Both the position numbers and the translations under genes were made by a program. The notes under the pieces are model-generated. The model saw nothing but the letters and a program-made list of their open reading frames with translations. It did no database searches and had not been told where the DNA came from. A stretch of DNA of 64,000 nt from positions 62,001 to 126,000 of the forward strand of contig JAFGGC010000002.1 of NCBI GenBank assembly GCA_016930715.1, given 5' to 3'. This DNA comes from Endomicrobiales bacterium (GTDB lineage Bacteria > Elusimicrobiota > Endomicrobiia > Endomicrobiales > JAFGGC01). Positions 39,915 to 42,603 of the stretch are shown here, piece after piece (the stretch's first letter is position 1; every line of letters begins with the position of its first letter).

Positions 39915-39954
39915 ATGTATATTGAAACATTCATTAAAAAAGAAACAATGTTTT

Positions 39955-40070
39955 AGAAAATAGCTTTACTAGTTAGTTGCCTCGTGGTGTAATGGTAACA
40001 CGGACGGCTCTGGACCGTCAATTTTAGGTTCAAATCCTAACGAGGCAGGTTTCTTGTAAAGCTATTTTCT
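39955..40070. repeat. Perfect 15-bp inverted repeat enclosing tRNA-Gln
   Basis: AGAAAATAGCTTTAC (39955-39969) and GTAAAGCTATTTTCT (40056-40070) are exact reverse complements. The tRNA gene lies in the loop with 8 bases on its 5' side and 7 on its 3' side. In the precursor RNA the leader and trailer could form a 15-bp stem and bring both processing sites together. Confidence 0.85.
39978..40048 (+). tRNA. tRNA-Gln (anticodon CTG)
   Basis: A full cloverleaf of 71 bases: acceptor TGCCTCG/CGAGGCA, D stem GTGT/ACAC, anticodon stem GACGG/CCGTC with loop CTCTGGA (anticodon CTG at 40010-40012), a four-base variable region, T stem TTAGG/CCTAA with loop TTCAAAT, and discriminator G. It starts with T, typical for tRNA-Gln. 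CCA is not encoded. It decodes CAG and would be charged by GlnRS (gene at 46001). Confidence 0.96.
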
Positions 40071-40083
40071 ATTAGGAGTGGTG

Positions 40084-40117
40084 CCCGCCTCATCGGCGGG
40101 TCAGCCGACGAGGCTGA
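40084..40117. repeat. GC-rich palindrome in the 5' part of the tRNA-Gln copy
   Basis: CCCGCC (40084-40089) pairs with GGCGGG (40095-40100). Alternatively GCCTCATCGGC (40087-40097) pairs with GCCGACGAGGC (40104-40114) with one mismatch. It belongs to the CCCGCC/GGCGGG hairpin family of this window. Confidence 0.6.
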
Positions 40118-40152
40118 TAATGGTAACACGGACGGCTCTGGACCGTCAATTT

Positions 40153-40302
40153 GTTTGGAAGGTTTCCGCCCACGCAAGTCATCCCGCAAAAAGGCGCAGC
40201 TATTCGCTGCAAATGCGGGATTGCTTTGGCGGACCAGCCGAAGTTGTTTCGCAAATACAGCGAATAGCTGTGGTTATTTGCGAAACGGTTAACGCAGGCT
40301 GG
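40153..40302. repeat. 150-base insertion with three hairpins
   Basis: Three successive stems: ATCCCGCA/TGCGGGAT (40181-40188, 40214-40221) with inner GCAGC/GCTGC; CTTTGGC/GCCGAAG (40224-40230, 40237-40243); and GTTTCGCAAATA/TATTTGCGAAAC (40246-40257, 40275-40286) with inner CAGC/GCTG. The apical loops of the first and third are TATTC and GAATA, which are complementary, so the two could form a kissing pair. It splits the tRNA-Gln copy at the T arm. Confidence 0.6.
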
Positions 40303-40399
40303 CAAATCCTAACGAGGCAGCCAGCTAAGCAGGCAAAGCAGCGGGAAACGGGCCCTGAAAACGAGCCTTTTTTGTTTAAAAGTATTTTTAAATAAAATG

Positions 40400-40437: not shown

Positions 40438-40487
40438 AAACTCCGTTGTTACGGGGTTTAGATTAATCATCCCGCCTCAGGCGGGAT
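40438..40487 (+). promoter_or_regulatory. Two hairpins in the cspA leader
   Basis: AAACTCCGT/ACGGGGTTT (40438-40446, 40451-40459) with a TGTT loop, then ATCCCGCCT-C-AGGCGGGAT (40469-40487). The second is another member of the CCCGCC/GGCGGG family. They may tune RNA stability or translation at low temperature; that is inference. Confidence 0.5.
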
Positions 40488-40770: not shown

Positions 40771-40865
40771 ATTGCCCGCAAAAAAATACACGATTGACCT
40801 TGGTCAGAAAAACGTTCCGCCTCTAAAGTAAATCTGTTTTAATAATTAATATAAAACTGCGGACG

Positions 40866-40936
40866 ACCCGCCGTAGCAGAATCAGCGATGCGCCGGATAG
40901 GCGCGTTTATCACTGATGCGTCTTGCGCAGGCGGGT
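40866..40936. repeat. Long compound palindrome between cspA and ygiQ
   Basis: ACCCGCC (40866-40872) and GGCGGGT (40930-40936) form the outer arms. Inside are ATCAG/CTGAT (40881-40885, 40913-40917) and GCGCC/GGCGC (40890-40894, 40900-40904). The right arm ends on the first base of the ygiQ stop codon. The gap 40771-40865 shows nothing else of note. Confidence 0.55.
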
Positions 40937-42603
40937 TATTTTCTTATTATGTCTTTTTGTTTCTGTTTCGCGGATGGGTTTCTTTCAACGAATATCTTCC
41001 TGCCCGAAAGGTCCATCCCGCACCAGTACATGGCGGCCGAAGCGGTCGAGGGAGTGGGGGTGAATATCTGCACCTGTTCCGGGAAGGTTTTCACGCCGCC
41101 TTTTAGGAAGTCCTTCAGCTTGTACATATGCCTTGGCGTGCAGCCCGGATGAGCGGCAATGAGGTAATACGTCAAGAAGTGTTTCTTTCCCTGTTTTCTG
41201 CAGGCTTCTTCAAAAGCGGTTTTGAATTTCATTAAGGACTTGACGGAAGGTTTGTTCATAAGTCCGAGCACTTCGTTGTCGTAGTGTTCGGGAGCTATCT
41301 TTATCTGCCCTGAAACGTGTTTCCTTACCAATTCCTCGATGTATTTTGCGCCGAAATTCCTGTCCCGAACGACCATGTCGTGGCGTATGCCGCTGGAAAC
41401 GAAGACTTTTTTAACCTTGGGCACTTTTAGTATACTGTCATACAGCTTTATTTGCGCGTCATGGGCCATCTTGAGTCTGTCGCAGGGGCTGGGGATCAGG
41501 CACAGCTTATTTTTGCAGGGCGCGCCGCCCTTGAGGCAGACGGTGCCGTACATGTTCGCCGTGGGCCCGCCGACATCGTATATGATACCGTTGAAACCGG
41601 GCAGGCGAGTTATCCTTTCGGCCTCTTTTATTATCGATCCGGCACTGCGTGACACGACTTTCCTTCCCTGATGGGGATAGATGGAGCAGAAACTGCACTG
41701 GCCGTAGCATCCGACGTGCGAGGTCACGGACTGCTTTATCGTTTCGAGGGCGCGTATCTGGCCTAGTCTCCCGTAATACGGATGGACGTCGCGTTCGAAA
41801 TCGAGGTCGAATACTTCGTCAAGTTCGCCTGCCGACAGGTATTCTCTTGGGGGATTGTGGATGAGGTACTTGTCGCCGTGTTTCTGATAGAAGCCCTTTG
41901 AAGGGTCGTCGCAGTACTGGTAAAACCGTATGAACATGTCAAGGAACCTGTTCTTGTCTTCCTTCACTTCTTCGAACGGGGTAAGCTCTGCCAGGCCGGC
42001 GGCAGGCGATGACGACGCGTAACATATCCCTTTGATGCTTTTCCAGTCCCTTTTCTCTTTGAAGGCTCTCGCGAGCTCCAGGACCGTTTTTTCGGCCATT
42101 CCGTAGGCGATGATATCGGATTTCGAATCAAAGAGCACCGAGCGCCGCACGGCGTCGTCCCAGTAGTCGTAGTGCGCTATCCTGCGGAGGCTCGCTTCGA
42201 TGCCGCCTATGACTATCGGTTTTGAGCTTTTAAAATGCCGTTTTATGAGATTGGTGTAGGCGATCACTGCCCTGTCGGGTCTTTTGTTAATTCCGCCGGG
42301 AGTGTAGTCGTCCTGCCTGCGCCATTTCTTGAGGGCGGTGTAGTTGGCGACCATCGAGTCCACGCAGCCGGCGGTCACACCCCAGAAGAGCGCGGGTTCT
42401 CCGAGACGCGTTATGTCCGAGCCGTTTTCTACGGTAGGCTGGCCTATTACCGCCACCCTGAAACCGTGTTTTAGAAGGTACTTGCCTACCATGGAAACGC
42501 CGACGTGCGGGCTGTCTATGTAGGCGTCTCCGGTGACAAGAATTATATCCGGCCTTTCCCAGCCGAGCTTGTCAAGTTCCGATTTTGTCGTTGGAAGAAA
42601 GAT
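40936..42603 (-). CDS. YgiQ-type radical SAM protein, apparent ATC start
   Basis: Radical SAM protein of the YgiQ family (UPF0313), exact reaction unknown. The three-Cys cluster motif is CYGQCSFC near residue 298, with later marks such as GGPTANMYG. The first Met (complement of 42492) would leave 518 residues and miss the conserved N-terminus. Reading upstream in frame gives 37 more codons, IFLPTTKSELDKLGWERPD and on to a GDAYIDSPHVGVS stretch, which matches the usual MFLPTTKEE start of the family. A TAA stop lies four codons before, no ATG, GTG or TTG lies between, and AAAGGAG stands 6 bases before the ATC at 42603-42601. I therefore call ATC as the start (555 residues). Confidence 0.85.
   Translation of the reverse strand: MFLPTTKSELDKLGWERPDIILVTGDAYIDSPHVGVSMVGKYLLKHGFRVAVIGQPTVENGSDITRLGEPALFWGVTAGCVDSMVANYTALKKWRRQDDYTPGGINKRPDRAVIAYTNLIKRHFKSSKPIVIGGIEASLRRIAHYDYWDDAVRRSVLFDSKSDIIAYGMAEKTVLELARAFKEKRDWKSIKGICYASSSPAAGLAELTPFEEVKEDKNRFLDMFIRFYQYCDDPSKGFYQKHGDKYLIHNPPREYLSAGELDEVFDLDFERDVHPYYGRLGQIRALETIKQSVTSHVGCYGQCSFCSIYPHQGRKVVSRSAGSIIKEAERITRLPGFNGIIYDVGGPTANMYGTVCLKGGAPCKNKLCLIPSPCDRLKMAHDAQIKLYDSILKVPKVKKVFVSSGIRHDMVVRDRNFGAKYIEELVRKHVSGQIKIAPEHYDNEVLGLMNKPSVKSLMKFKTAFEEACRKQGKKHFLTYYLIAAHPGCTPRHMYKLKDFLKGGVKTFPEQVQIFTPTPSTASAAMYWCGMDLSGRKIFVERNPSAKQKQKDIIRK

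Follow-up and report, generated by a model that had tools for sequence, protein, structure and literature searches.

The second copy of tRNA-Gln in the window analysed here, a stretch of 64,000 nucleotides, is dead as a tRNA, and it is probably a non-functional host of mobile hairpin elements, one member of a family of tRNA-gene-associated units that extends across the Endomicrobiales and is possibly driven by a protein with a GIY-YIG domain. The genome that carries it, 2.3 Mb in 45 contigs, belongs to the order Endomicrobiales of the phylum Elusimicrobiota and is the sole member of its own family among the 60 relatives searched; it is labelled G000 below, other G numbers being relatives and L numbers being loci. 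Considered alone, this copy 2 would pass for an ordinary dead tRNA gene copy, apart from how unusually cleanly its hairpin inserts are set in. In context, it fits a pattern seen across the lineage, apparently a novel variant among palindromic mobile elements.

Structure of the broken tRNA-Gln copy

The functional gene, tRNA-Gln(CTG), occupies positions 39978-40048 of the forward strand (ARAGORN; Rfam RF00005, 63.5 bits), and copy 2 starts 29 nt behind it on the same strand. In the ARAGORN numbering used for tRNA positions (t), with t1 at 39977, copy 2 retains t8-72, and zero tRNA bases are lost at either insert joint. It opens with GTGGTG (t8-13, 40078-40083), which stands directly 5′ of the first insert, P1 (40084-40117), a 34-nt double hairpin placed between t13 and t14 and made of two adjacent perfect 6-bp hairpins, CCCGCC-TCATC-GGCGGG and TCAGCC-GACGA-GGCTGA. 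The tRNA then resumes with t14-48 (40118-40152), a direct repeat identical to the intact gene at 35/35 positions, after which GTTTGGA (40153-40159) replaces a single tRNA base, t49, and AGGTT (t50-54, 40160-40164) leads directly into a 138-nt insert in the T-loop (40165-40302). This second insert lies between t54 and t55, at the bond between GGTT and CAA, and consists of nested, back-to-back hairpins of 69 nt each, P2 (TCCGCC...GGCGGA, 40165-40233) and P3 (CCAGCC...GGCTGG, 40234-40302), all on the forward strand. The remainder, t55-72 (40303-40320), is again a direct repeat of the intact gene, identical at 18/18 positions. The first-pass annotation had described the 35-nt and 18-nt blocks, their complete identity to the neighbouring gene, the 150 nt between them and a GC-rich palindrome 5′ of them, all of which agrees with our reading. 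Two details needed correction. The palindrome is real and the 5′ acceptor strand is indeed missing, but the palindrome measures 34 nt and not 32, and the D-arm bases that it was thought to have replaced are kept as the GTGGTG directly 5′ of it; likewise, the 150-nt gap is present but retains t50-54, so that the T-loop insert itself is 138 nt.

In place of the 5′ acceptor strand (t1-7), which reads TGCCTCG in the intact gene, copy 2 has a TTAGGAG-like sequence. The flanks of the two copies are unrelated, identity being confined to the tRNA part, and the flanks of copy 2 contain no target duplication. The identical blocks may stem from a recent duplication or from gene conversion. No GIY-YIG open reading frame (ORF) was found in copy 2, where the frame at 40078-40395 is a mechanical ORF running across the inserts, and hairpins alone are present. 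It had also been suggested that an RNA freed of both inserts could be a tRNA, in the manner of an intron-containing or split gene that is spliced to a functional product. The precise ends of the inserts within an otherwise collinear tRNA are what such a gene would show; however, the acceptor strands remain unpaired after joining, the T-stem and the variable region are altered, and ARAGORN, which detects the intact gene, finds no tRNA in copy 2 with its inserts left out. Moreover, the anticodon is also that of the intact gene 29 nt away, and we give this suggestion almost no credence. Because the 5′ acceptor strand is unpaired and ARAGORN rejects the joined copy, copy 2 is regarded as dead.

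Other inverted repeats occur in the vicinity. The intact tRNA-Gln is enclosed by a perfect 16-bp inverted repeat on the forward strand, located by a repeat search, with its left arm at 39954-39969 (TAGAAAATAGCTTTAC) and its right arm at 40056-40071 (GTAAAGCTATTTTCTA); a longer one surrounds a duplicated tRNA-Leu at L052. Further intergenic palindromes were noted near a cold-shock gene at 40468-40487 (ATCCCGCCTCAGGCGGGAT) and 40862-40937 (GACCCGCC...GGCGGGTT).

Fragments of tRNA genes beside their intact counterparts

Copy 2 came up in a search for intact tRNAs that have an exact piece of their own sequence (at least 12 nt) within 450 nt, other tRNA genes being masked, in stretches around the tRNAs of six genomes (G000, G004, G006, G002, G012, and G013). 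Such own-tRNA fragments accompany 16/35 tRNAs in G000, 15/43 in G004, 6/29 in G006, and 4/32 in G002, and 1/41 and 0/36 in G012 and G013, two relatives of family f6. When flanks were swapped between tRNAs as a control, the expectation was 0-0.5 cases per genome, and 0.3 for G000, the genome of copy 2. Pieces downstream of a tRNA run from within or near the T-arm to the end of the tRNA and often continue into the flank, while upstream pieces end in the D-arm region and a few breaks fall in the anticodon loop. Direct repeats of variable length reach from the T-loop or the D-arm into the flank, the copies being mostly 27-460 nt apart in a search that reached 500 nt on either side. An intact version stands beside a broken gene, often because part of the tRNA and its flank is duplicated around the insert.

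Breakpoints are concentrated in one place. The T-loop holds 23 of the 63 internal breakpoints where 8.8 were expected (P = 7e-6), and we claim it as a breakpoint hot spot; among the same 63, the D-arm, anticodon loop and variable loop show no excess over a uniform expectation. A general preference for all tRNA loops is ruled out, the T-loop alone being enriched. Behind a hairpin insert the same tRNA resumes exactly in eight cases, against 1.05 expected. The double hairpin and the T-loop insert of copy 2 recur as a pattern in other tRNA gene copies, in keeping with the first-pass reading of a dead copy that served as a landing site for palindromic elements.

Two explanations other than mobile hairpins bear on these repeats. 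Partial tRNA copies commonly arise by integration of foreign elements (PMC9897764), and copy 2 could then be an attL/attR remnant left by a deleted phage or integrative element. Partial and intact tRNA copies side by side are what attR fragments and the present loci have in common. Unlike attR fragments, the present repeats are separated by spacers of tens to hundreds of bases that are filled with recurrent hairpin families, no kilobase-scale foreign DNA being seen in the 500 nt searched on each side, and the repeated sequence takes in flanks and terminators peculiar to each locus. Integrative elements are known to cross over in the T-loop; here, breaks fall in the D-arm and the anticodon arm too, and copy 2 has kept the two halves of the tRNA, two of whose arms bear inserts. 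On the strength of spacer size within the 500 nt searched and of the locus-specific repeats we reject integrase remnants, and for copy 2 itself such an origin is very improbable. The second explanation is replication slippage or template switching, in which tRNA genes stall replication forks and nascent strands jump at the T-loop and D-arm hairpins, giving local partial duplications with hairpins copied into the joints; it would need no mobile element and would make copy 2 mere debris of decay. The duplications are indeed local and variable in length. Against slippage, the two f6 relatives lack the pattern despite having the same tRNAs, and further evidence, given with the hairpin families and the reading frames below, leads us to regard slippage as rather unlikely.

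The tRNA neighbourhoods also affect the assemblies themselves. In G000, a contig end is no more than about 620 nt away from 10 of the 35 confident tRNAs, where 0.85 would be expected, and the contigs that end at tRNA genes are C16, C23, C45, C18, C4, C7, C44, C21, and C14. As a practical warning, tRNA-rich regions of such genomes break assemblies. Independent assemblies, including a single-contig one, nevertheless contain tRNA-adjacent units of these kinds, which makes misassembly at the tRNA-Gln locus unlikely.

Hairpin families at the joints

Three kinds of hairpin, here called P, Z, and Y, recur at the tRNA joints. The P family comprises hairpins of the CCCGCC or TCCGCC type and includes the inserts of copy 2. 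P2 has a relative in the same genome at C29:3995-4061 (85%), and P3 has relatives at C23:76328 (79%) and at C41:5429 (74%), the last one inside a tRNA-Leu fragment. Relatives of the precisely placed inserts thus exist elsewhere in the genome (L002, L003, L004), L004, a relative of the T-loop hairpins, adjoining a partial tRNA-Leu copy; the first-pass annotation had named their absence, along with a lack of transcription, as what would leave plain pseudogene decay. Simple decay as the only process is ruled out by this sharing of element families together with the recurrence of the pattern. A more distant relative of the P3 type, L041 of G004, interrupts a tRNA-Arg copy in its T-loop, again at the bond between GGTT and CAA. 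The architecture of P1 is likewise found in tRNA-Asp, tRNA-Glu, and tRNA-Ser copies of G004, of which the tRNA-Asp copy, where a 30-nt double hairpin exactly separates t23 from t24, is the closest twin of copy 2, and in G077, from another class, where the anticodon loop of a tRNA-Ser copy (L294) is the exact site of a 29-nt double hairpin.

Z is a double hairpin with a conserved GACGAATAAGGA-type loop. In an alignment of 11 sequences 96.6% of cells are paired and 10/16 pairs show changes on both sides, which was reached by 0/500 shuffles. A model of Z matches 19/60 genomes of the order, with up to 47 copies, as well as a few genomes of other classes. Among the 20 copies listed for G004, eight lie within 300 nt of a tRNA, where about 1% would be expected (P = 6e-11); many Z copies are situated away from tRNAs, and others within unrelated palindromes. 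When loci containing Z were searched with Rfam, tRNAs alone scored above the gathering threshold. In two relatives from different families, Z follows a 5′ tRNA-Gln fragment at the same bond (L117 in G004 and L221 in G002), the locus lying downstream of a DUF1844-like gene in both; the shared position may reflect either one old insertion or two independent ones.

These hairpins in loops invite comparison with REP/RAYT systems and with the Rickettsia palindromic elements, which are short GC-rich palindromes, often dimers, dispersed and sometimes located within genes (PMC3733652). The likeness extends to the presence of a Y1 transposase in G000, and one may suppose that a Y1/HUH transposase (RAYT) mobilises REP-like hairpins into single-stranded loops of tRNA genes. 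The Y1_Tnp domain (PF01797) is found in G000 (four copies), G004, G002, G006, and G001, and is absent from G012 and G013, as would suit this supposition. The overlap over the 60 genomes is loose, however, with both Z and Y1_Tnp in 10, Z only in nine and Y1_Tnp only in eight. A Y1 transposase is probably not the sole driver, because the single-contig genome G014 has 17 Z and no Y1_Tnp, a comparison that concerns Z and not P1-P3. Unlike REP/RAYT elements, moreover, the units described here prefer tRNA genes and include partial tRNA duplication, and we consider RAYT-driven insertion unlikely.

Y units have a GC-rich core whose left end repeats the T-arm of the neighbouring tRNA in inverted orientation and whose right end repeats it directly. 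The left-end pattern directly adjoins a tRNA in 12/13 matches, and the similarity among cores taken from different tRNAs and families is well above that of shuffles. Rfam contains no family that matches the Z or Y units. Hairpins of 100-170 nt directly 3′ of tRNA genes at L074, L079, and L090 (downstream of the Phe, Thr, Leu-GAG, and Lys tRNAs) form a further family with a common core like GGCTGCAACTTCGTCAGC..CTACG..CGCCTCAGATTC..TTCGTTTCGCC. The left ends of Y, being inverted copies of the same tRNA's T-arm, are what the fold-back of a slipping strand would produce. On the other hand, slippage accounts poorly for hairpin families common to different GTDB families and to different tRNAs, as seen in the covariation of Z and in the similarity of Y cores far above shuffles.

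The closest known anatomy to that of Y is found in the tyrT/tyrV repeats of Escherichia coli, the source of RtT RNA (RF00391). On checking, each of these repeats proved to contain the 3′ end of tRNA-Tyr as an inverted copy, a GC-rich core, and the tRNA's final 19 nt with flank in direct orientation; Y units are built alike beside intact tRNAs of several kinds. In Pasteurellaceae, RtT RNAs adjoin tRNA genes, and RtT RNAs were originally discovered as tRNA operon products (PMC4986893); the hairpins described here could likewise be RNA genes, released from tRNA transcripts as selected small RNAs, with copy 2 as part of such a unit. The RF00391 covariance model, however, matched none of seven Endomicrobiales loci (E <= 10), while the E. 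coli positive control gave four matches of 133-138 bits, and the similarity of the cores to E. coli does not rise above shuffles. As the units gave no match to the RtT model, membership in RtT is not claimed. In E. coli one locus was examined, whereas here many tRNA species per genome are involved, the D-arm and anticodon arm are affected too, and some units contain a GIY-YIG ORF. Many Z copies lie away from tRNAs and copy 2 is not of the Y type, and thus not of the E. coli tyrT/RtT type; an RtT-like RNA gene is, in our judgement, quite improbable.

GIY-YIG reading frames in the units

In several relatives the short ORFs between broken and intact tRNAs encode GIY-YIG domains. They are 80-91 amino acids long and score as PF01541, and units with such an ORF and its catalytic residues occur at Lys, Ser, Asp, Pro, and Met tRNAs in the relatives and in G000; six proteins from tRNA units all keep the residues Y, R, H, and E unchanged. 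The ORFs share the PF01541 match and the conserved Y/R/H/E with GIY-YIG homing endonucleases and with small GIY-YIG (UPF0213-like) proteins. Unlike with homing endonucleases, no intron is seen around them, and any cutting activity is putative. In a sample of 60 GIY-YIG loci from 25 genomes, divided by the listed open-frame lengths into 44 small and 16 UvrC-type loci, an intact tRNA lies within about 300 nt in 12/44 of the former and 0/16 of the latter (P = 8e-13). The other 32/44 small loci are not near a tRNA, and several lie in other palindromic repeats. At L261, L267, L268, and L273, for example, small GIY-YIG ORFs are enclosed in palindromic repeats of the GTCATTGCGAGGAGC..GCAATCTC type, and some ORFs of this type read their N-terminal residues from the repeat.

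In four of the units (Lys, Ser, Asp, and Pro) the ORF takes its last codons and its stop from the 5′ half of the regenerated tRNA, unlike in known GIY-YIG proteins. The tRNA-Asp unit of G004 runs in the order t1-23, double hairpin, GIY-YIG ORF, t1-23, hairpin, t24-56, and the final codons of the ORF (..GDVV, stop) are the first bases of the tRNA. At tRNA-Pro of G001 a 17-nt palindrome replaces the anticodon arm and is followed by a GIY-YIG ORF that ends in ..SGSGAIG with its stop within the intact tRNA, and the same palindrome is repeated in a downstream 3′ copy. The tRNA-Ser unit of G004 and the tRNA-Lys unit of G000, whose ORF has 90 amino acids, have the same build. In G077 a Z element, the hairpin-broken tRNA-Ser copy and a GIY-YIG ORF follow one another ahead of the intact gene. 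Slippage would give no reason for GIY-YIG ORFs to be located within the units.

A scenario for the spread of the units

We favour, with moderate confidence, the explanation by mobile hairpin elements. Units would settle inside tRNA genes, with the T-loop as hot spot and the D-arm and anticodon arm as further sites, and the survivors would be those whose insertion rebuilds an intact tRNA or leaves one standing next to it. A putative GIY-YIG endonuclease may cut the tRNA gene and the unit may then spread through repair, hairpin-only units such as copy 2 being non-autonomous. At tRNA-Gln, one double hairpin would have entered the D-arm and two nested hairpins the T-loop at its GGTT/CAA bond. This mechanism is weakest on which enzyme acts and on whether duplication or insertion came first. 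Several points speak against the mobile-element reading, namely that copy 2 contains no GIY-YIG ORF and has no target duplication, that most small GIY-YIG loci (32/44) are not near a tRNA, that many Z lie away from tRNAs, that breakpoints in the D-arm, anticodon loop and variable loop show no excess, and that no pair of strains shows an insertion before and after. A bolder version, which we put forward tentatively and as less probable than the general scenario, is that of minimal tRNA-gene elements, each consisting of a hairpin and a single-domain GIY-YIG gene ending in the 5′ half of the tRNA, whose insertion would break the old tRNA and rebuild a new one; P, Z, and Y would then be non-autonomous, and E. 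coli tyrT/RtT perhaps a relict of such an element.

Tandem pairs of small hairpins are also known as mobile-looking inserts in mitochondria, as repetitive or double hairpin elements (PMC2800124). In the accessible part of that account, these elements resemble the present units in their tandem hairpin pairs and differ in being intergenic or in protein genes, with no link to tRNA copies or GIY-YIG seen there. REP/RAYT elements, mitochondrial hairpin elements and the tRNA fragments of integrated elements have single features in common with the units here and no more. In the open-access literature we found no description of tRNA-associated palindromes in Elusimicrobiota, nor of hairpin units in tRNA genes with GIY-YIG ORFs.

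If the scenario is true, it would explain why the tRNA genes of a whole bacterial lineage are surrounded by their own fragments. It would also supply a candidate enzyme, the small GIY-YIG protein, for palindromic repeats whose mobility is poorly understood, and a testable origin for the tyrT/RtT repeats of E. coli.
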